Part shown: positions 40,846 through 50,185 of the stretch, one piece after another
How the letters are laid out: each line of letters opens with the position of its first letter
Position numbering within the stretch: the first letter of the stretch is position 1
Origin: Mycobacterium paraseoulense
GTDB taxonomy: Bacteria; Actinomycetota; Actinomycetes; Mycobacteriales; Mycobacteriaceae
Direction of reading: 5' to 3'
Assembly: GCF_010731655.1 (NCBI RefSeq)
Contig: NZ_AP022619.1
Span: 4,030,001 to 4,094,000, forward strand
DNA: 64,000 nt
Made by a program: the position numbers and the translations under genes
The notes under the pieces: generated by a model
What the model was told of the DNA's origin: nothing
Databases searched by the model: none
What the model saw: only the letters and a program-made list of their open reading frames with translations

Positions 40846-42165
40846 ATGCACTCAAGCGCACCCGCCGAAATCTGGCGGTCGGTGCGCAGTTTGCCGGAAT
40901 TCTGGCGGCTGCTGCAGGTGCGCATGGCGAGTCAATTCGGTGACGGGCTGTTCCAGGCGGGTCTGGCCGGGGCGTTGCTGTTCAATCCGGACCGGGCCGC
41001 CGATCCGATGGCCATCGCGCGGGCGTTCACCGTGCTGTTCCTGCCTTATTCGCTGTTGGGTCCGTTCGCGGGAGCGCTGATGGACCGTTGGGACCGGCGG
41101 CTCGTGCTCGTCGGCGCCAACGCCGGCCGCGTCATCCTGATCGCAGCGATAGGCACCATCCTGGCCGTCCGGGCCGGCGATCTGCCGCTGTTGTTGGGCG
41201 CGCTGTTCGCCAACGGTTTGGCCCGGTTCGTCGCTTCCGGGCTCTCGGCGTCGCTGCCGCACGTCGTGCCGCGCGAACAGGTCGTGACGATGAACGCCGC
41301 AGCCAACGCGGCCGGGGCCGTCGCCGCCTTCATCGGCGCCAACTTCATGCTCGTGCCCCGGTTCGTATTCGGCGCCGGTGACAAGGGGGCCTCGGCGATC
41401 ATCTTCCTCACCGCGATCCCCGTCGTGATCGCCTTGCTGCTGTCGTGGCGGTTCGGCCCTCGTGTCCTCGGCCCCGACGACACCAAGCGGGCGATCCACG
41501 GACCGGTCATCTACGCCGTGGTCACCGGCTGGCTGCACGGCGCGCGCACGGTGGCGCAACGGCCGACCGTCGCCGCGACCTTGTCCGGCCTGGCCGCCCA
41601 CCGGATGGTGATCGGCATCAATTCCTTGCTGGTCCTGTTGCTGGTCCACCACATGACCGACCCCGAAGCCGGGGGATTGGGCACCGCGCTGGTGTTCTTC
41701 GGCGCCGCGGGTCTGGGCGCATTCCTGGCCAATGTGCTGACTCCGCCCGCGGTCCGTCGCTGGGGGCGCTATGCGACGGTCAATGGTGCTTTGGTGATGT
41801 CGGCGATCATCGAAGTCGCCGGCGCGGGATTACTGCTACCGATCATGGTGGCTTGCGGCTTCTTCCTCGGTGTGACCGGGCAGATGGTCAAGCTGTGCGC
41901 CGACTCGGCGATGCAGATGGATGTCGATGACGCCCTGCGCGGGCACGTGTTCGCCGTGCAGGACGCGCTGTTCTGGGTCTCGTTCATCGTCTCGATCACG
42001 GTGGCCGCGCTGTTGATTCCCGCCGACGGCCACGCGCCGGCTTTCGTCCTGTTCGGCTCGGGGGTGTACCTGGCCGGCCTGGCCATGCACGGCGTCCTGG
42101 GCCGGCGGGGCGAGCAGGCGAATAATCGCTACCCGGCGGCGGCAACCGACGAGCGGAGGCAATGA
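40846..42165 (+). CDS. MFS transporter
   Basis: 439-aa major facilitator superfamily protein with about 12 transmembrane helices. The N-terminal cytoplasmic part ([43 protein letters not shown]) leads into helix 1, and [20 protein letters not shown] (about 80-99) is the MFS motif A loop between helices 2 and 3. Helix 12 is near 415. It is similar to the enterobactin exporter-like (EntS) or drug-efflux group; substrate unknown. ATG 40846 is chosen; an upstream ATG at 40792 would add 18 residues. The stop overlaps the next ATG by four bases. Confidence 0.88.
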
Positions 42166-42938
42166 TGGCGGGTCCCGAACCGATCGTGGCTGACCTACGG
42201 GCCGAAAGCGATGAGCTCGACGCCCTGGTTGCACCGCTGCCGCCCGAACGCTGGGCCGATCCGACGCCCGCGCCCGGCTGGACAATCGCCCATCAGATCG
42301 GGCATTTGTTGTGGACCGACCGGGTCGCGCTGACCGCGGTCACCGACGAGGCCGGGTTCGCCGAAGAGCTCAAGGCGGCGGCCGCCGACCCAGCCGGCTT
42401 CGTCGACGCCGGCGCCGAAGAGTTGGCGGCTCTTCCGCCGGCCGAGCTGCTCGCCGATTGGCGGGTCACCCGCGGCCGATTGCACGACGACCTGCTGATG
42501 GTTCCCGCCGGGCGAAAACTTCCCTGGTTCGGCCCCCCGATGAGCGCGGCGTCGATGGCTACCGCGCGGTTGATGGAGACGTGGGCCCACGGACTGGACG
42601 TGGCGGACGCGCTGGGCGTCAAGCGGGTGGCCACCGACCGGTTGCGGTCGATCGCTCATCTGGGGGTGCGCACCCGCGACTACGCCTTTTTCGTGAACAA
42701 CCTCCCCGCTCCGGCCGAGCCTTTCCTGGTCGAGTTGCGGGGACCCAGCGGCGACACCTGGAGTTGGGGACCGCCCGACGCCGCCCAGCGGGTCACCGGT
42801 TCCGCGGAAGACTTCTGCTGTCTGGTCACTCAGCGCCGCTCGCTCAGTGCCCTCGACATCACCGCGCACGGGCCCGACGCCCAGCGCTGGCTGGAGATCG
42901 CGCAGGCCTTCGCCGGCCCGCCCGGCGTCGGTCGATGA
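42162..42938 (+). CDS. DinB/MDMPI-fold metal-binding protein (TIGR03084 family)
   Basis: 258-aa protein with an N-terminal DinB-like four-helix metal-binding domain of the mycothiol-dependent maleylpyruvate isomerase type. [16 protein letters not shown] (about 37-52) supplies one metal His, and [20 protein letters not shown] (about 128-147) supplies Glu and His of the E-x-x-x-H-x-x-D motif. The C-terminal domain binds no known ligand. It could be a thiol-dependent isomerase or transferase. Translationally coupled to the MFS gene upstream (ATGA). Its stop codon lies inside the first unit of a 54-bp tandem repeat. Confidence 0.87.
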
Positions 42939-43061
42939 GCGCGCCGGCGCGCGAAGAGAGCCGGCGCCCACGGACCGAGCGTCGGTCGATGAGCGCGCCG
43001 GCGCGCGAAGAGAGCCGACGCCCACGGACCGAGCGTCGGTCGATGAGCGCGCCGGCGCGAG
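42925..43061 (+). repeat. 54-bp tandem repeat (2.5 copies) between convergent genes
   Basis: Units begin at 42925, 42979 and 43033, each starting GCGTCGGTCGATGAGCGC; the third is cut short at about 43061. The first two differ at only one or two bases (GCCGGCGCCC against GCCGACGCCC). Every unit holds the palindrome GCGCGCCGGCGCGC or its start, and contains GATGAG where the first copy carries the stop of the preceding gene. The unit length (18 codons) and position recall mycobacterial MIRU/VNTR loci. The palindromes might also act as bidirectional terminators. Confidence 0.9.
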
Positions 43062-43385
43062 TTAGTGCAGCGGTCCGCCGTAACTTGCCCGGTTCTCGGC
43101 CTCGGCCTCTTCCCGCAGGGCCGTGATCGCGAGGTTCAGTCGGTCGGCGAGCTCGCCGTGGGCATATCCGGTCATCACGCCGGGATGCAGCGTCAGCTTG
43201 AGCAACCGTCCGTCGGCATTGGCCACGGCAAAGATGTCGCCGAGATCGACGCTGTAGGTGACGGCCTCGGCCTGCGCCACAAGGGCTTCCCACTTGTCGG
43301 CGGCCTCGCTCAGTTCGCGAAGAACCGACTCGACGAGATCCTTGTCGCTGAGATTCGCGCGACCGCCCGAACCCGACACGATCAC
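43062..43385 (-). CDS. YbaB/DUF2710-like small protein
   Basis: 107-aa soluble protein. DKDLVESVLRELSEAADKWEALVAQAEAVTYSVDLGDIFAVANADGRLLKLTLHPGVMTGYAHGELADRLNLAITALREEAEAENRA shows a YbaB-like arrangement: long N-terminal helix, a small beta sheet (GRLLKLTLHPGV) and a C-terminal helix. Such proteins accompany type VII secretion genes in mycobacteria. GTG 43385 with GGAGGGG ten bases upstream. It is the last gene of the minus-strand cluster, 65 bases after the DUF5631/5632 gene. Nucleoid or secretion-related function is not shown. Confidence 0.8.
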   Translation of the reverse strand: MIVSGSGGRANLSDKDLVESVLRELSEAADKWEALVAQAEAVTYSVDLGDIFAVANADGRLLKLTLHPGVMTGYAHGELADRLNLAITALREEAEAENRASYGGPLH

Positions 43386-43450
43386 AGTATGTCGACCCCT
43401 CCAACCAGCGTCAATTCGACAATTCGTGGGCCAGGGGCAACTCCGATCGC

Positions 43451-45250
43451 CTAGGCGTCGGGCGGCGGGCCGGCGAGTTTCCGATACCAGGCGAGGTGGT
43501 AGTTCGCCGATATCGCGTCACCGCTGGCGAGGCCTTCGGTGGCCGCCATCAACAGGCACTTGAGCAGAAGTGCCGGATTCACGGTCGGGTATTGGACCAA
43601 GAGCTGGTAGCGCGCCGTATCGAGGTGCACCCGCAAGACATCGACCTCCTGGTCGATGATCACGGCGTCCGCGGCGGCCGCATCCGCCAGCCTCTGCACG
43701 ATCCGGGGAAGCCCGTCGAAGCGGCGCGTGGTCTCGCTCAGCGCCCTGCCCAGGTCCTCGATCGCGGGCAGCTCGCGCGGTTCCACAGACGATTTCGTCG
43801 CGGCGAAGTCCGCCGAGCGGCGCAGCGAATCACCGGGGGCATAAGTCACGACGCGTACCGCGTCGCCGATCAACGCCCCGACCCTGCCGGTGCGTGGCTC
43901 GGGTTCCAACAACCGCACGCCGGCCGGAAGGGTGATGCCTGCAGGTATCCAGCCGTGGGCGAGATCGGTGACCAAGACCGTCGTACCGTCGGCGCGCTCG
44001 CCGACCGCCCAATTCAGCCGCGGCTCCTGGCGGACCACATACTCGAGCAATCGGTTCAGCCGGTCGACCTCGAAACCCGTTGCAGTGGGGCGTTTTTCGC
44101 GGGGCAGGCCGGGGGACTCCCGGGGAATCCGCGGTTCGTCGTGCCCGGCAGCGGGCTCGCCGACGAACGCGTGGTGGCGACCGGCGTCCGCCGGTTCGTC
44201 GACGACGGGCTCGGCCTCGGTGATCGCGGGGATGACCTGTGTCTCGGCAATCGAAGCCGCCGCTGCGGTGTCGGCGGGTTCCGGCTCCTGCTGGGCCTCG
44301 TCCGGTCCCGGCGCCGGCTCCGCCACGTCGACATGGTGGCGACCGGTGGCGACGGGCGCCCAATCCATCGCGGGCACGCTGTCGGCGGGCTCGTCGACGA
44401 CACGTTCGACTTCGGTGATCGCGGGGATGACCCGCGTCTCCTCGACCGCGGTCACCGCGGCATCGTCCTCCGGCGGCCACTCGGGCTCGTCCTGGCGCGG
44501 TGCCGGCTCCTGCGCCTCCACGTAGTGGCGACCGTTCGCGAGGGACTCATGACCGGCTTCCACGTCCTCGGCCGGCGCTTCGGCGACGTGCTCCACTTCA
44601 GCCAAGCTCGGGATGACCTGCGTCTCCTCCATATGCTGGATTTCCGGCACATCCGGCATTTCCGGCGCGGTCGCAGCCTCCGCCGCGATCTCCTGTGCAG
44701 GGGTTTCACGCGGCGGCGGCCCGGGCTCGTCCCCTGTCGGCATCACGGGAGGCGGCCTGTCGGCGACCCGCCAGCGCGGCTTACGCACCGTCCTGGTGGG
44801 CGCTTCGGAAGGTCGCGCGTCCGTGACAGCAGGGATGATCCGGGTCTGCTCCATGTCCGACGACGGCGGCTCGGCGAATTGCGGACGTGGATACCCGGCG
44901 TTCACCGAGTGCAGCTGGCGAATCGTCGATTCCACGCGCCGCACGGCGCGGGCACGGGCCTCATCGATGACCCGTGCTTCTTCGGCCTGGCGGGGCAGAT
45001 CTGCCAATCCCGCACGTTTGATCATCCTCAGCTGCTGGTTGGCGTTGTCGGCGATTCGTTGCAGGTCGACCTTCAGATACTCTGCGAGCGTGGCGTTTTC
45101 GGTGGTGAGCGTCGCAAGCTCGGCAGGCCAAAGCCCACCGATCACCCAGGGGGTGCAATCGATGGGAGAGCTAAAGGCCGGCATCGCCAGTGATTCCCGG
45201 GTAGCTCTCCGGAGGCGCTGACGCGCCGTCATCCGACCGAAGATCGCCAC
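43451..45250 (-). CDS. DUF5631/DUF5632 protein with repeated ExT(Q/R)xIP segments
   Basis: 599-aa protein, longer than the roughly 365-aa M. tuberculosis counterpart. An N-terminal helical domain (about 23-120, starting MPAFSSPIDCTPWVIGGLWP) is followed by an acidic, low-complexity middle (about 125-385) and a C-terminal domain (about 390-599; RLNRLLEYVVRQEPRLNWAVGERADGTTVLVTDLAHGWIPAGI). The middle holds four EQTRIIP/EETQVIP-type motifs with Thr at about 136, 210, 272 and 337, and three GRH(Y/H)-E-P-A-P segments, suggesting a duplicated repeat unit of about 65 residues. GTG 45250 is six bases after TACGCT, which suggests a leaderless start; ATG 45232 or 45184 are alternatives. Function unknown; type VII secretion-linked. 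Confidence 0.82.
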   Translation of the reverse strand: MAIFGRMTARQRLRRATRESLAMPAFSSPIDCTPWVIGGLWPAELATLTTENATLAEYLKVDLQRIADNANQQLRMIKRAGLADLPRQAEEARVIDEARARAVRRVESTIRQLHSVNAGYPRPQFAEPPSSDMEQTRIIPAVTDARPSEAPTRTVRKPRWRVADRPPPVMPTGDEPGPPPRETPAQEIAAEAATAPEMPDVPEIQHMEETQVIPSLAEVEHVAEAPAEDVEAGHESLANGRHYVEAQEPAPRQDEPEWPPEDDAAVTAVEETRVIPAITEVERVVDEPADSVPAMDWAPVATGRHHVDVAEPAPGPDEAQQEPEPADTAAAASIAETQVIPAITEAEPVVDEPADAGRHHAFVGEPAAGHDEPRIPRESPGLPREKRPTATGFEVDRLNRLLEYVVRQEPRLNWAVGERADGTTVLVTDLAHGWIPAGITLPAGVRLLEPEPRTGRVGALIGDAVRVVTYAPGDSLRRSADFAATKSSVEPRELPAIEDLGRALSETTRRFDGLPRIVQRLADAAAADAVIIDQEVDVLRVHLDTARYQLLVQYPTVNPALLLKCLLMAATEGLASGDAISANYHLAWYRKLAGPPPDA

Positions 45251-45297
45251 CGGTTAAGCGTACCGGCAGCTGACGAATCGCTTATTCGGTCAGTGAA

Positions 45298-45332
45298 TTG
45301 TGCAGCTGTGACGGCCTGGGTAGCGTGGGGAT
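45298..45332 (+). promoter_or_regulatory. Promoter of the 47-aa microgene
   Basis: TTGTGC (45298-45303), a 17-base spacer and TAGCGT (45321-45326) precede ATG 45333 by six bases, predicting transcription from the start codon. The region is shared with the divergent DUF5631/5632 gene. Confidence 0.55.
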
Positions 45333-45476
45333 ATGGCTGAATCTGCGCTGCAGCAGCAACTCGACGAAGTGCGTGCCCTGCTCGCTCGCGCACGAGAGTT
45401 GTTCGGCCCCAATCCCGTCGAGCCGCCCACCGATATCGCTCCGGATCCCCGGGCGGCCAAGACCTGGCTGCTGTAG
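45333..45476 (+). CDS. 47-aa small protein, opposite strand within the T7SS-linked cluster
   Basis: Short frame ATG 45333 to TAG 45474-45476. The product begins MAESALQQQLDEVRALLARAR, a heptad-like amphipathic helix, and continues to a proline/acidic stretch (ELFGPNPVEPPTDIAPDPRA) and the end KTWLL. It is not a shadow: the space between the DUF2694 and DUF5631/5632 genes is otherwise empty and a good promoter sits immediately upstream. The helix resembles the N-terminal coiled-coil of small partner proteins, so a role in binding a neighbour's product is possible. No family recognised. Confidence 0.65.
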   Translation: MAESALQQQLDEVRALLARARELFGPNPVEPPTDIAPDPRAAKTWLL

Positions 45477-45489
45477 GGCCCGAAACCGG

Positions 45490-45801
45490 CTACCGTGCGG
45501 TGCCGCGGCGGCGCAGTTTATGCGCAAGCAACTTCTCGATCGCCGTATCAAGATCGCGCGGAGTGGGAACCTCCGCCGAGGGGGTATGCCCGGCCGCCAG
45601 GATTTCGTCGCGAATCTCCAGCAATGCCTTGAGGCAAGAAACGTCGGCGGTCAGCAAAATGCCACGTGCCAGCGTCTCGGCGTCGGTCTCCATCGCCTCT
45701 TCGCTCAGCGCGACGCTGTGCATGTAGCCGCCGCGGCAGGAGCGGACGAGGATGTGCCCACTCGGGTGAACGGTGTCAAAAGCGGGATTCGCGTCCGTCA
45801 T
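45490..45801 (-). CDS. DUF2694 family protein
   Basis: 103-aa mycobacterial protein. The core FDTVHPSGHILVRSCRGGYMHSVALSEEAMETDAETLARGILLTADVSCLKALLEIRDEILAAG shows a short beta hairpin followed by helices, as expected for DUF2694 proteins associated with type VII secretion loci. Start ATG 45801 overlaps the stop of the preceding EspC-like gene by four bases, so the two are translationally coupled. Ends 14 bases from the opposite-strand microgene stop. The biochemical role is unknown. Confidence 0.82.
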   Translation of the reverse strand: MTDANPAFDTVHPSGHILVRSCRGGYMHSVALSEEAMETDAETLARGILLTADVSCLKALLEIRDEILAAGHTPSAEVPTPRDLDTAIEKLLAHKLRRRGTAR

Positions 45802-46115
45802 CGACCGCGGTCGGCAATGCCGCCGAGGTTGCGCGCCGACTCCTGCTCGTGCTGCTCCCACATCGCCGCCGACGCCGCGAGTTTGTCCGCCAGGTCGGCG
45901 TGGTCGGCGGCTTGTTGTTCGTAGCACTGGCGTCGGAGTTCGAGCAGTTCGCGCCCGGCGTCGCGTAGTTCACCGAAGATCGGGCCCAGCGAGTCCAGGC
46001 TTTCCTGTATCGCCTCATGCGACGACGGGACCGTACGCAAGTACTCGGAGGTTTCCTGGTGACGCGCGGCGGCTTGACGCAAGTGCGTGGGAACCACATG
46101 GATCGAATCTGCCAT
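45798..46115 (-). CDS. EspC-like type VII secretion target (DUF2580-type)
   Basis: 105-aa, almost entirely helical protein. ADSIHVVPTHLRQAAARHQETSEYLRTVPSSHEAIQESLDSLGPIFGELRDAGRELLELRRQCYEQQAADHADLADKLAASAAMWEQHEQESARNL shows the helix-turn-helix layout of WXG100-like/EspC substrates, with a late helix where a YxxxD/E-type export signal would lie (YEQQAAD near residue 67). Its length equals that of the M. tuberculosis counterpart. It overlaps the DUF2694 gene. The partner may be the DUF2694 protein or a DUF4226 protein, as these substrates are often exported as heterodimers. Confidence 0.84.
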   Translation of the reverse strand: MADSIHVVPTHLRQAAARHQETSEYLRTVPSSHEAIQESLDSLGPIFGELRDAGRELLELRRQCYEQQAADHADLADKLAASAAMWEQHEQESARNLGGIADRGR

Positions 46116-46165
46116 CCGCTGTCTCCTGTTCACGGTTGCCGGCCAGACCGGCGTGATCACTATTG

Positions 46166-47521
46166 TCAGGTGGTCGACGAACTCGCCGGCCGTGTGGGTG
46201 TCGGTGTGTCGGGCTTCGCCGGCGCGGTCACGGCCGACGCCGGTGGATGCTCCCAGCCTAGAAAGGCCGGCCCGCTCACGGTGGCGATGTCTTGAATTCG
46301 GCCATCGAGAAGGGCCTTGCCCGGGCCGAGGGCAAGTGCGTGCCGGTCGACGAACATCCCGATGTCCGCCGGAGCCACGCGCGACGCGTCGATCGGTTCG
46401 GTGACCGCCGTGCCCGGCGGCGGAATCGTTATTCCCTGCTGTTGAAAGGCATCTGATATAGCCACCCCACCAACCGCGGCTTTGATCGCCGCCGCTAACT
46501 GGGGGCTGGCCGCGGTCACCGTCTCACCGTCGGGCAAGGTCACGGTGGTGGGACCGGCCGGTGCCGGCTCGTCCCCATCCGCCGGCACGTCAATGGGGGC
46601 GTCACCGTCTTGTGCGCCTGATTCATCTGATGAAGCGTCGGCCTCCGGATCCGGGTCTTGCCCGGACTCCAGCGGGCCGCCGTCGTCGAGGCCGGGCAGG
46701 GATTCGCCGCCCTGCGGGGCGGGAAGCGGGAACCCGCCCGGCGTGGCGCCGAGACTCGGCAGTCCCGGGCCGAGGCTGGGCAGTTGCGGCAACATCGCAG
46801 GCATGGGCGCCGCCGGGGCGGTCACGCCGTCCGGCACACCCATTCCGTCATCGGGTGCTGGGCCCGGATCGTCGGCCAGCAATGAATCCAGCAGCGGATC
46901 CCACTCGGCATCATCCGCCGACGGCTGGGTTTCGGTATCGGCGCCGGAGGCCCGGCCCGGCGGGCGCTCGTCGGGGCCGTTCGGCTGGGTCTTCGATGCG
47001 TCGTAGAGCGATGTCCATGCGGCCATCAGAGCTGATTTCGACGTGTCGTCCAGGCTGGCGCTGAGGACCACCGCGCGAATGTCTCGGAGTTTGCCGATCA
47101 GAAAGCGCTGGAAGTCTCGCGCTCCGGCCGGGGTGTCCAGATCCGATCGCGTCCGTACCGCGGCTTCGGTGTCGTGCTGCAACTTGGCCAGCGCCTGGCC
47201 GCCATCGACGGCGTTCAGGTGGGCATTCAAGATGGCGGTAATCACCTGCATGTCGAGCTGGGAGCTCGACGAATTCTGGTGTGCCAAAGCGGCTTCGGCG
47301 CGCGCGATGGCTTCCGCCGCTTCACCCTTCTCCCCACCCGGGGGCGTCGCGTGTTGCTGACGGATCTTGCCCACGATCGCCTGAAGCTGTTCGGGGCGCG
47401 TCGTCGGGGCGATCACGGCGGCCAGCTCACCGGGCGATAGGCCCGCCTGCCACGCGTTCGGGTCACCGGTGCGATCTCGCGCATATTGCACCGCGGCAAG
47501 CAGCTCCTCGTACGCCGACAT
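46166..47521 (-). CDS. DUF4226 protein with long acidic-proline linker
   Basis: 451-aa protein. The N-terminal domain (about 1-180) includes the DUF4226-type helix pair (QNSSSSQLDMQVITAILNAHLNAVDGGQALAKLQHDTEAAVRTRSDLDTPAGARDFQRFLIGKLRDIRAVV) that is shared with the next upstream gene ([24 protein letters not shown]). A disordered acidic/proline linker (about 185-335) connects to a C-terminal domain (about 335-430: TTVTLPDGETVTAASPQLAAAIKAAVGGVAISDAFQQQGI). No signal peptide, so export, if any, would be through type VII secretion. Function unknown; paralogous to the 120-aa neighbour in its shared helix pair. Confidence 0.82.
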   Translation of the reverse strand: MSAYEELLAAVQYARDRTGDPNAWQAGLSPGELAAVIAPTTRPEQLQAIVGKIRQQHATPPGGEKGEAAEAIARAEAALAHQNSSSSQLDMQVITAILNAHLNAVDGGQALAKLQHDTEAAVRTRSDLDTPAGARDFQRFLIGKLRDIRAVVLSASLDDTSKSALMAAWTSLYDASKTQPNGPDERPPGRASGADTETQPSADDAEWDPLLDSLLADDPGPAPDDGMGVPDGVTAPAAPMPAMLPQLPSLGPGLPSLGATPGGFPLPAPQGGESLPGLDDGGPLESGQDPDPEADASSDESGAQDGDAPIDVPADGDEPAPAGPTTVTLPDGETVTAASPQLAAAIKAAVGGVAISDAFQQQGITIPPPGTAVTEPIDASRVAPADIGMFVDRHALALGPGKALLDGRIQDIATVSGPAFLGWEHPPASAVTAPAKPDTPTPTRPASSSTT

Positions 47522-47663
47522 CTAGGCGACCGGCGCTGCATGCACCGCACGTGTTTGCGGGATGCGTTGCGGCCCCTCCATGTCCGGCGACAGTACCCAG
47601 ACATCTGGCTGCCGACAATTCACTGCGCAGGGCGACTGTGGATGACACTGCGACCGCGCCGTG

Positions 47664-48026
47664 CTAGCCGTTCTCGGGGGCGTACTGGTCCCGAAGACCG
47701 TCCAGGACAACCTTTTTCGCTTGACTGAGTTCGCGTGCATGTTCGACGACCGCTGCGATCTCGCGCTGTTTGGCCAGCAGGAATCTTTGAAACTCCCGCG
47801 CGCCCATGGGCGTATCGACGGCGAGGCCCGCTTGGTGCGAGGTGGCGTGGTCGATCTGCTCGGCGATGGCATCCAGCCGCCGGGCACCCTCCCGCATCGC
47901 GGCATGAGCGCTGGTGAGCACCTCCGCCAGCACGCGGTCGGCGTCGGCGGCCGTGCCATGCCGGCCGGCCAACGCCGACTGCCGCGCCTGCATGGCGGCT
48001 ACCGAAGGTCCGGCTTGTTCGGTCAT
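47664..48026 (-). CDS. DUF4226 family protein (120 aa)
   Basis: 120-aa helical protein. [90 protein letters not shown] is the DUF4226 helical core; the [20 protein letters not shown] segment is nearly repeated in the larger DUF4226 protein encoded next. ATG 48026 is used (AGGGTGA upstream) and gives the same length as the M. tuberculosis homologue. It begins 16 bases after the NlpC/P60 stop, so it is probably in the same operon. A WXG100-like secreted or chaperone role is inference. Confidence 0.84.
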
Positions 48027-48042
48027 CGGTTCACCCTGTTCG

Positions 48043-48858
48043 TCATAGCGGTCGGCGGATAGCGACGTTGGCGCCCAGCCGGCTGATCCGAACCGAAGCA
48101 CCCGAATACGGCGCTTCGATCACCAGGTTGTTGCCGATGGCCAGCTGAACGTGCCCGGGGTGGGGGAAGACGAGATCACCGGGACGGACTTGCGAACGAG
48201 GCACCGGGATCCCGTCGTTGATCTGCTGATAGGTGGTGCGGTCCAACCGAATTCCGGCTTGCGCGTAGCTCCACTGGACCAGGCCCGAACAGTCGAACTC
48301 GTCGGGCCCCGTCGCACCCCACACGTAGGGCCGACCCAGGCGTGACAACGCGGCGCGCACCGCGGCTGCGGCTCGCCCGGTCAGCCCCGATCCGGCGACG
48401 CGGTGGCGCAGGAGTTGGTAGCGCAGTGCCCGCAGTTCCGCGAGGTGTCGTCGGGACCGTAATCGGGCCGACAAGACGTGCGCGCGTTGTGTCCGAAGTC
48501 GCGCCGCGCGGCGGCGCATCGCCTCGCGCTGCGCCATCGGTGTCGTCGGGACCACAGCGTCGGCGCGGGCCTCTTCGAGGACGGTCCGGGTCAAATCGCG
48601 GGCCTGGTCCCGATCCCGCTGGGCTCCGGCGATGACGTTTGCCGCCGCGGCGTCCGTCGCAGCGGCGGCCGCGAGGCGTTGCCGACTGTGATCCGCGGCG
48701 AGCCGATAGCCACCGTGTCCCAATCCGTCGCTCAGCTCCGCGGCCGGACGCAAGAGGTCGCGGTAATGCCCGATGCCGGCATCCAACGACGGGGCCCGAG
48801 TACTACCGACGAACATGTCGTGAGCACGGCTCAATGCCGCGATCTCGCTTCCGTTCAC
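48043..48858 (-). CDS. NlpC/P60 peptidoglycan hydrolase-like protein
   Basis: 271-aa protein. The N-terminal two thirds (1-150) are helical, with a long charged coiled-coil region ([39 protein letters not shown]). The C-terminal NlpC/P60 domain has [32 protein letters not shown] (Cys nucleophile about residue 193), [32 protein letters not shown] (catalytic His) and a third polar residue after it. The domain cleaves D-Glu/mDAP bonds in RipA relatives. There is no signal peptide, so export may depend on type VII secretion. The GTG start overlaps the XRE stop (GTGA). Confidence 0.9.
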
Positions 48859-49625
48859 TGCGCCTCCTCGCCTTGGCGGCCTTCGGCTTCGACGGCATCG
48901 GTGAAGGCGCGCACGCGGGGGAGTGCCCCGGGCGGGATAACCCCCCGGTTGCGAATGTCCCAGATCTCCTCGACGTCGACCCCGACCAGGGCTGCGATGA
49001 TCGTTTCCGGCAGTGACGAGCGCGCGCAGGCCCTGTCGAAGCGTGCGCTCAAGCTGGTAGGCATCCGCTTGAGCAGGGCCGTGCGGGTGGCCTCGAGGGC
49101 TTGGAGGTGCTCCATCAGGCGGTCGGTGGAGTCCGCGCCGGCATTCACCGCGACCCGCCAGGAACCGGCGGCGAGCATCTCGGCCTTCACGCACTGAGCG
49201 ATCACAGACAGAATATACGTCTCATATTCGTTTGATGTTGTCGCAGGCAACCGATCGATGACGGACTTGAGCGCTTCGAGCTGAGCTTCGGCGTAACCTT
49301 CCAGCACTTCGGTGTCAGTGTGCCGGTCCACGATCACGGGCCCGGTGCGCCTGGCGGGCACGGCGGCGGGCGGCTGCGCGGCCATCAGCCGGGCCAGTTC
49401 GGCATCCGGATCGGCGGCCACCAACAGCCGGGAATAGGTGCCCGGGGGGAGGCCAAGTCCGTTCTCAACCTTCTGAACTGTGCTTTTGTGTGGCTTACGG
49501 GCGCCGCGCTCCAGGAAGCTCAGCCCCATGATGCTGACACCGGTCGCGGCGGCAAGGTCGGCCAGTGACCAGTCGCGCGACTCTCGTAAAGCGCGGATCG
49601 CCGCGCCGGCCGATTCACGGCTCAC
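48855..49625 (-). CDS. XRE-family regulator
   Basis: 256-aa protein with an N-terminal Cro/C1-type helix-turn-helix (GAAIRALRESRDWSLADLAAATGVSIMGLSFLERGARKPHKSTVQKVENGLGLPPGTY, about 6-63) and a C-terminal helical domain (about 90-250) with IWDIRNRGVIPPGALPRVRAF near the end. It corresponds by position to the regulator next to whiB5 in M. tuberculosis. GTG start 49625. It leads the minus-strand cluster and is divergent from the WhiB gene across a palindrome-rich region, so it probably regulates both. Confidence 0.9.
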   Translation of the reverse strand: MSRESAGAAIRALRESRDWSLADLAAATGVSIMGLSFLERGARKPHKSTVQKVENGLGLPPGTYSRLLVAADPDAELARLMAAQPPAAVPARRTGPVIVDRHTDTEVLEGYAEAQLEALKSVIDRLPATTSNEYETYILSVIAQCVKAEMLAAGSWRVAVNAGADSTDRLMEHLQALEATRTALLKRMPTSLSARFDRACARSSLPETIIAALVGVDVEEIWDIRNRGVIPPGALPRVRAFTDAVEAEGRQGEEAQ

Positions 49626-49633
49626 CGCACGCT

Positions 49634-49730
49634 CCGGCCATAGGCCGGATAGTACACAGCGCAGGCCGTATCGCTCCGTATATACGTTTTTGTCACGTTT
49701 CTCTTGCGCGCCGCCCGTCTATCTGTATAC
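49634..49730. promoter_or_regulatory. XRE/WhiB divergent control region with palindromes
   Basis: The 143-base gap holds CCGGCC-ATA-GGCCGG (49634-49648), the perfect palindrome CGTATATACG (49677-49686) and GTATAC (49725-49730), with two ACGTTT words near 49696 and 49741. The spacing suggests repeated binding of a dimeric regulator, most likely the XRE protein. Confidence 0.55.
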
Positions 49731-49768
49731 GCTTCTATCTACGTTTCGCGCTCGACAAGGAGACCGAC

Positions 49769-50185
49769 ATGGGACACCCCTGCGCTGCCAACCCGGAACT
49801 TTGGTTCGGCTACCCCGACGACGACGGTGGTGATGGCGCGGCCAAGGCCCGTGCGTACGAACGGTCGGCCGTCGAGGCGCGCATCCAGTGCCTGCGCCGC
49901 TGCCCGCTGGCGCAGCAGCGCCGCTGCGCCCAGCACGCCATTGCACACCGCGAGGAGTACGGCGTCTGGGCGGGGGTGAAGCTCCCCGGTGGCCAGTACC
50001 GCAAGCGCGAACAGCTTGCCCAGGCTCATGAGGTTCTGCGGCGCATCGCGTCCGGCGAGATCAATGCGCGCCAGCTGCCGGAGAATGCGGCCCTGCTCGC
50101 CAACCACGAACACGAGACCGTTCCGGTGGCCGCGGTGGTGCTGCACCTGCCGCTCGCCCAGGTCGGGCCGCGCTCGGCCGCCTGA
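49769..50185 (+). CDS. whiB5: WhiB-family Fe-S regulator (WhiB5-like)
   Basis: 138-aa WhiB-like protein, expected to bind a [4Fe-4S] cluster and sigma-A and so sense redox or NO. Cysteines are at residue 5 (HPCAANPELWFGYP), then QCLRRCPLAQQRRCAQHA. The central pair is C-x3-C and the last spacing C-x7-C, instead of the usual C-x2-C-x5-C; a CxxxC pair is what is reported for WhiB5. YGVWAGVKLPGGQYRKREQL holds the G(V/I)W turn and basic DNA-binding tail. ATG 49769 follows AAGGAGA. Position next to the XRE regulator also matches WhiB5. Confidence 0.88.
   Translation: MGHPCAANPELWFGYPDDDGGDGAAKARAYERSAVEARIQCLRRCPLAQQRRCAQHAIAHREEYGVWAGVKLPGGQYRKREQLAQAHEVLRRIASGEINARQLPENAALLANHEHETVPVAAVVLHLPLAQVGPRSAA

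Follow-up and report, generated by a model that had tools for sequence, protein, structure and literature searches.

A conserved gene cassette of Mycobacterium paraseoulense as the probable upstream half of a split ESX-2 locus

The window analysed here is a stretch of 64,000 nt from Mycobacterium paraseoulense (GCF_010731655.1, NZ_AP022619.1, forward strand, positions 4,030,001 to 4,094,000), whose genome forms one contig of 6,085,955 bases, and our subject is a gene cassette at 43062–50185 of that window, which we consider in relation to the type VII secretion system ESX-2. The preliminary description had counted nine genes; the arrangement it gave was found again, with nine protein genes and an antisense microgene, ten in total. 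At one end, the gene for a WhiB5-like WhiB regulator of 138 aa (49769–50185, plus strand; Pfam Whib, 5.3e-10) stands divergent from that for an XRE regulator of 256 aa (48855–49625, minus strand; Rv0023-like; HTH_3, 2.4e-11), with 143 bp between them. The XRE gene overlaps by 4 bp the gene for an NlpC/P60 hydrolase of 271 aa (48043–48858; RipE/Rv0024-like; NLPC_P60, 9.2e-22), which is followed, also on the minus strand, by two DUF4226 proteins, a (120 aa, 47664–48026; 1.2e-37) and b (451 aa, 46166–47521; 5.2e-36). Then come a predicted type VII target of the EspC/EspF family (105 aa, 45798–46115; PF10824 T7SS_ESX_EspC, 2.8e-29, 101.9 bits against a cut-off of 23.5) and a DUF2694 protein (103 aa, 45490–45801; PF10904, 2.3e-53), whose genes share another 4-bp overlap, a DUF5632/DUF5631 protein of 599 aa (43451–45250) and a DUF2710 protein of 107 aa (43062–43385; PF10921, 2.1e-52), all on the minus strand. 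The microgene (47 aa, 45333–45476, plus strand) occupies the space that separates DUF2694 from DUF5631. The H37Rv gene numbers used here (the Rv0022c–Rv0030 range for the cassette, and Rv3896c) are ones that we assume from gene order.

Pfam cut-offs were passed for Whib, HTH_3, NLPC_P60, DUF4226 (in both proteins), T7SS_ESX_EspC, DUF2694, DUF5631, DUF5632 and DUF2710. The kinship of the two DUF4226 proteins that had been noticed earlier is real, with 49% identity over 39 residues (E 9e-10), but the naming of the last protein as YbaB-like holds only in part: it passes its own DUF2710 profile, and its match to the YbaB profile (0.0049, 17.4 against 25.5 bits) falls under the cut-off. A plasmid relative in locus L096 scored 25.1 with YbaB and 25.9 with DUF2710, for which the cut-off is 29.6. 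Between the DUF2710 gene and a gene at 42162–42938 lies a GC-rich tandem repeat with a 54-bp unit (42925–43059, 2.5 copies, 98% matches), which we take to resemble a mycobacterial interspersed repeat.

A single gene order is kept across 56 named loci, which were collected with a DUF5631 query, the presence of DUF5631 there being given by construction. Both DUF4226 genes, the EspC-family gene and DUF2694 were called in all 56, NlpC/P60 in 55, XRE in 54, whiB5 in 46 and DUF2710 in 41; a missing call may reflect a contig end, gene calling or true absence. The microgene encodes a LQQQLDEV motif in 54 of the 56; the motif did not reveal it in L112 (genome G022) or L128 (G084), where divergence of its sequence is possible. 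Compared with the window, codon changes in 52 loci fell 216, 108 and 588 times at positions 1, 2 and 3, with 497 synonymous and 216 non-synonymous codons. Given this conservation and the excess of third-position changes, the microgene is probably a genuine protein-coding gene.

As to where the cassette belongs, physical contiguity with an ESX-2 core is a stronger argument than co-occurrence. With ESX labels assigned from gene order, complete loci running from the cassette to eccA2 were annotated in six genomes (G186, G084, G012, G060, G071 and G191, in our own numbering), and the joint locus reads XRE-NlpC-(DUF4226a)-DUF4226b-EspC-DUF2694-DUF5631-DUF2710-(Rv3896c-like)-eccB2-eccC2-PE-PPE-esx-esx-espG-(EspI-like)-eccD2-mycP2-eccE2-eccA2. 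Among these six, whiB5 was uncalled in G186, G012 and G060 and DUF4226a in G071 and G191, the espG label is weak and G191 has none, G084 and G012 have no Rv3896c-like gene, and G071 has no EspI-like gene; the whiB5 of G191 lies two genes from the mycP1 of ESX-1. Other loci join the cassette to eccB2 and eccC2 in G006, G045 (where eccB2 was placed by the EccB2 search), G143 and G175, and G022 has the entire ESX-2 core in reverse orientation, its tail facing that of the cassette. DUF2710 stands in contiguous loci either just before eccB2 or before the Rv3896c-like gene and eccB2.

Similar adjacency was seen in the wider survey, in which 198 Mycobacterium genomes were searched with DUF2694, DUF5631, EccB2, EccE2, EccE1 (for ESX-1) and EccE5 (for ESX-5). 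EccB2 was searched at 1e-120, and identity of at least 58% was taken to indicate an ESX-2 orthologue, 12 EccB rows at 48–52% being taken as plasmid-type. In 54 genomes, eccB2 and DUF2694 share a contig. In 29 of them, DUF2694 is followed on its own strand by eccB2, 0.6–6.3 kb downstream, and in 25 the two are apart; in 35 further genomes, the two are on different contigs. In eight genomes for which all DUF5631 matches were listed (G004, G009, G024, G093, G098, G136, G156 and G176), a DUF5631 gene stands just upstream of eccB2 with none near DUF2694, and at least 58 of the 89 eccB2 genomes have DUF5631 no more than 4.5 kb upstream of eccB2, among the 150 matches listed. In a tree of 20 EccB rows, from which ESX-4 was left out, the EccB proteins of contiguous loci formed a 100/100 clade with the ESX-2 EccB of the window's genome and of G105, with those of ESX-1, ESX-3 and ESX-5 outside and a protein of a M. 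poriferae plasmid adjoining (94/93).

For the co-occurrence counts, DUF2694 was used as the marker of the cassette. Any match was found in 116 genomes, and exclusion of the 12 with weak matches only (E > 1e-20) left 104; the annotated loci among those 12 (G117, G185, G162, G140, G157 and one contig of G033) are plasmid-type modules. The marker and eccB2 were found together in 89 genomes, the marker only in 15, eccB2 only in none and neither in 94. With eccE2, counted in 87 of 134 matching genomes (rows of at least 47% identity, fragments included), the corresponding figures were 86, 18, 1 and 93. Independent occurrence of the genes, which the preliminary description had named as a refuting condition, did not refute a module at the genome level: DUF2694 and DUF5631 were both present in 100 of the 198 genomes and just one of them in 4 and 1, some DUF5631 copies being those on the core side of ESX-2. 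Two genomes consisting of single contigs of 3.3 Mb (G075 and G115) have ESX-1 and ESX-5, and neither the DUF2694 marker nor ESX-2 was matched in them.

The genome of M. paraseoulense itself carries ESX-1, ESX-2, ESX-3 and ESX-5 loci, and its ESX-2 is split three ways over about 150 kb, into the cassette and two core pieces. One of these is eccB2-eccC2, with eccB2 at C1:4137980, and the other, beside the mycP1 of ESX-1, is eccA2-eccE2-mycP2-eccD2-esx-PPE-PE (PE36), from about 3995 kb, with eccE2 at C1:3996872. The separation recurs, given that the distance from DUF2694 to eccB2 is about 62–86 kb in 11 of the 25 genomes, this one included, in which the two are apart on the same contig. The arrangements encountered also include an inverted one at about 17 kb and a break between DUF2694 and DUF5631. 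Other rearrangements of ESX-2 have been reported: according to passages of PMC4791881, EccB2 and EccC2 have been transposed in the M. avium complex, and passages of PMC6616192 describe the ESX-2 of M. paragordonae as intact but split, with lateral transfer as the explanation given for its second part.

On this evidence, we consider it quite probable that the cassette is the upstream half of an ESX-2 locus, carrying its regulators, esp-like genes and hydrolase, that was split from the core in this lineage by chromosomal rearrangement. The preliminary description had suggested a satellite type VII secretion module, without its own ATPase or membrane channel, that would deliver the hydrolase under redox (WhiB) control. 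A conserved module in which an EspC-family protein, regulators, a hydrolase and chaperone-like proteins come together is indeed what we found, but it is probably no satellite without an ATPase or channel, since in many relatives it directly adjoins the ESX-2 core and the core pieces are present in its own genome.

Several of the other proteins suggest which parts they would play in such a system. DUF4226b consists of the DUF4226 domain, a low-confidence linker and a conserved C-terminal domain, with AlphaFold confident at about residues 1–60 and 320–430 only; its model gave no fold match in the PDB (best E 1.0), which does not exclude a fold. Its parallel with EspE is positional only, as hhalign of DUF4226 against one EspE gave 1.4%. 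PF10904, the DUF2694 profile, matched the espH product of the ESX-1 locus of G105 (24.1 bits against a cut-off of 22) and none of 49 other EspH proteins at E 0.01; from the G105 match, we propose that DUF2694 may be a small partner or chaperone of the EspH type. Residues 385–598 of the DUF5632/DUF5631 protein have a fold like that of Rv3899c and, more weakly, perhaps that of EspK, and its strongest single-sequence match in a small search set is in the ESX-2 region (1.4e-29). Passages of PMC9811218 attribute the C-terminal fold of EspK to Rv3899c, which adjoins ESX-2, and to Rv0029. The cassette itself has no EspB-like gene. DUF4226b and the EspC-like protein would be candidate Esp-type substrates of ESX-2, and the EspH-like DUF2694, EspK-like DUF5631 and YbaB-like DUF2710 proteins possible partners or chaperones.

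The expression of ESX-2 would be set by XRE and WhiB5. Passages of PMC7020754 report that the XRE protein Rv0023 binds to the whiB5 promoter and represses it, and the regulation of esx-2 and esx-4 by WhiB5 (Casonato 2012) is cited in passages of PMC7020754 and PMC3796483. The XRE protein is EspM-like across its HTH and the part that follows, with the FHA domain absent: it matched the NCBIfam EspM profile at positions 139–305 only (E 1.3e-5, 24.3 bits against a cut-off of 550), and hhalign against EspM-type proteins gave 86% and 73%. Of 14 matches to this profile genome-wide, two besides that of the XRE protein extend to positions 139–305: EspM itself and an EspM-like gene close to ESX-3 (L003, 11793–12923), which scores 400 bits, under the cut-off of the profile.

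The hydrolase deserves separate consideration. Its catalytic residues Cys190, His236 and Glu248 are conserved in 55 of 55 sequences, and its N-terminal part best matches, in a small search set, the Rv3896c-like protein encoded before eccB2 (3.9e-19), with 99.8% in an hhalign comparison of the two N-termini. This match and that of the DUF5632/DUF5631 protein, both to the ESX-2 region, were the two strongest single-sequence matches in that set. Against DUF4226, the N-termini of the hydrolase and of the Rv3896c-like protein gave 59% and 86%, a likeness that is only moderate because, although 19 of 20 controls reached no more than 2.2%, one (hydrolase N-termini against XRE) gave 26.6%. ESX-2 may deliver the hydrolase, an export that we predict from sequence: this enzyme and its sister enzyme by eccB2 would trim peptidoglycan for or through the ESX-2 channel, and recognition would occur via the DUF4226-like N-terminal domain rather than via a signal peptide. 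A bolder reading, possible in our view and offered tentatively, would make ESX-2 a wall-remodelling system that exports a DUF4226-tagged folded NlpC/P60 endopeptidase and an SLT-type transglycosylase together with the EspC/DUF4226 pair, under an XRE/WhiB5 switch still coupled to a core scattered to two other chromosomal places. It could also be that the hydrolase is cytoplasmic or conventionally exported and a mere neighbour of the esp genes, as might be expected from a review that counts Rv0024 as the fifth Rip protein, RipE, and in the passages available mentions no ESX link (PMC12067865). This would be compatible with the assignment of the cassette to ESX-2, but we regard it as rather unlikely. 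A crude hydropathy scan, made with no dedicated predictor, agreed with the earlier remark that the predicted exported proteins have no signal peptide, and the hydrolase showed no signal-peptide-like stretch; moreover, its gene is inside the locus in 55 of the 56 named loci and in the six complete ESX-2 loci, its N-terminal domain is common to the protein encoded beside eccB2 and moderately DUF4226-like, and it also occurs in plasmid modules, though L096 lacks it.

Besides the control just mentioned, several observations weigh against the assignment to ESX-2. ESX-5, a control for slow growers, also correlates with the marker (both in 72 genomes, marker only in 32, ESX-5 only in 4, neither in 90), so clade membership accounts for some of the ESX-2 signal, and co-occurrence and gene order are partly a matter of shared ancestry. 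The association between ESX-2 and the marker persists, however, among both ESX-5-positive genomes (both in 64, marker only in 8, ESX-2 only in none, neither in 4) and ESX-5-negative ones (25, 7, 0 and 90). In two of the complete loci (G084 and G012), XRE was called on the opposite strand from NlpC. The usual export motif of EspC-type proteins is YxxxD/E, and in the EspC-like protein, it is replaced by WxxxE/D in 57 of 57 sequences. Other comparisons with ESX-1 proteins were also unfavourable: hhalign gave 14% for DUF2694 against EspH and 0.3% for DUF2710 against EspL, and WhiB5 was not recovered as a sister of WhiB6 in a poorly resolved tree, in which WhiB6 and the plasmid WhiB proteins formed a clade (98/96) with WhiB5 apart.

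The most direct of these contrary observations is that cassettes exist without ESX-2, since 15 of the 104 marker genomes have no eccB2 match at 1e-120. Ten were inspected (G018, G056, G089, G126 and G148 being outside that set). G195 has all nine cassette genes together with ESX-1 and ESX-5 and no ESX-2 match, and most of the others keep XRE, NlpC, DUF4226b, EspC and DUF2694. There is no called DUF2710 in G134 and no called whiB5 or DUF2710 in G030, which has an eccA2-like gene alongside; G101 and G181 keep most of the cassette beside an eccA2-like gene; in G151, G184, G053 and G043, DUF5631 and DUF2710 are lost; and in G076 (L121), the cassette and eccB2/eccC2 are both fragmentary, a possible case of joint decay of the two halves. 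The DUF2694 of M. marinum M is 88% identical to that of G006. Passages of PMC4791881 and PMC6616192 report ESX-2 absent from M. marinum M, and passages of PMC10100886 report that M. ulcerans, described as lacking ESX-2, expresses whiB5. Complete or near-complete cassettes of this kind indicate that the cassette can outlive ESX-2; another ESX system may then employ it, or it may be what remains after a recent loss. They would also be expected if the cassette were an independent satellite module that serves any ESX channel present, with its ESX-2 neighbourhood incidental. We find this improbable, because none of the 89 eccB2 genomes lacks the marker, eccB2 is adjacent in 29 of 54 genomes, the genomes without ESX-2 include the four that have lost DUF5631 and DUF2710 and the one with fragments, and plasmid relatives share contigs with ESX cores.

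DUF2694-type proteins were found in 21 PLSDB plasmids. On pJCM12603 of M. poriferae and pMYCCH.01 of M. chubuense, there is a module of DUF4226, EspC-like, DUF2694 and X genes followed by a small protein in the place of DUF2710, annotated as YbaB in M. chubuense. The modules lie about 4 kb before eccC or eccB, followed by PE and PPE genes, a pair of small genes at the esx position and espG. In L096 (G162), a whiB gene, an EspM-like gene, a module without NlpC and EccC stand in a row. The M. branderi plasmid pJCM12687 (L102, 10523–20286) combines the module with NlpC/P60, a lytic transglycosylase and whiB/XRE; no ecc gene is annotated up to 18 kb away, but the same contig (G117:C2, 864,257 bases) has an EccB-type match about 34 kb from the module. 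Of the 12 plasmid-type EccB places, eight have a weak DUF2694 match on their contig, within 35 kb in seven (G162, G033, G144, G117, G185, G140 and G056) and at 184 kb in G152. From these arrangements, the module would seem to have accompanied ESX cores for a long time.

Finally, the cassette might be a stripped copy of the flanks of ESX-1 (whiB6/espM, espF, espH, espK and espL) that serves ESX-1, as the EspC/EspF membership, the DUF2694 match on one espH, the EspM-like XRE, the EspK-like fold and a parallel in regulation would suggest (passages of PMC7002343 report that EspM binds upstream of whiB6, as passages of PMC7020754 do for Rv0023 at whiB5), but we consider this very improbable, given that the association with ESX-1 is negative (both in 37 genomes, marker only in 67, ESX-1 only in 71, neither in 23), that 53 genomes have the marker and ESX-2 without ESX-1, that DUF5631 and the N-terminus of the hydrolase best match the ESX-2 region in the set searched, and that WhiB5 does not group with WhiB6 in the poorly resolved tree. 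A collinear copy of those flanks was likewise rejected: some families fit, but the distribution, the best matches and the WhiB tree point to ESX-2. As for ESX-1 itself in M. paraseoulense, a putative second espE-like/espF-like stretch lies between espF and espG (L001, 7272–10027), and a TetR regulator gene and a putative second espB-like gene lie between espJ and espK (L002, 5140–7212).

Of the five ESX systems of mycobacteria, ESX-2 is one of the least understood; passages of PMC8593097 report that it is needed for phagosome permeabilisation, and the passages of the literature available to us assign it no substrates or chaperones of its own. If the cassette is the upstream half of ESX-2, candidate substrates, chaperones and regulators of this system would be named together, the action of WhiB5 on esx-2 would be explained, the orphan hydrolase RipE would belong to a secretion pathway, and lateral transfer would no longer be the only reading of the split locus in M. 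paragordonae. The single families and the link between WhiB5 and esx-2 are known already; as for the assignment of the whole cassette to ESX-2, no paper assigning Rv0022c–Rv0030 to the ESX-2 locus was found in our full-text library, which is partial and lacks most subscription journals.

Comparison with known systems helps to define what is shared and what is not. Rv0024/RipE is likewise an NlpC/P60 enzyme with Cys-His-Glu residues that adjoins an XRE gene, but in the review it is one of five Rip proteins, whereas here it is assigned to ESX-2 beside an SLT-type sister. The flanks of ESX-1 (whiB6, espM, espF, espH, espK, espL and espB) share with the cassette the EspC/EspF family, a putative EspH-type protein, a possibly EspK-like fold and an EspM-like regulator by a whiB gene; the cassette differs in that its XRE lacks FHA, WhiB5 is a separate WhiB lineage, DUF4226 stands for EspE, hydrolase genes are added and the core is another one. 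The plasmid ESX loci have the same DUF4226-EspC-DUF2694-X-YbaB-like order by eccC/eccB, to which M. poriferae adds a C40 peptidase, but slot X is taken by a PPE-domain protein or an unnamed one, where the cassette has DUF5631, and the plasmid whiB/XRE pairs seen (L094, a M. branderi plasmid, and L096) are WhiB6/EspM-like, unlike those of the window. The closest counterpart is ESX-2 itself, given in passages of PMC6616192 as Rv3884c–Rv3895c of M. tuberculosis: in the published definitions, as far as the passages go, the locus ends at eccB2 and the cassette is excluded, whereas many species have the cassette joined to the core as its 5′ end; in the window, it is detached.

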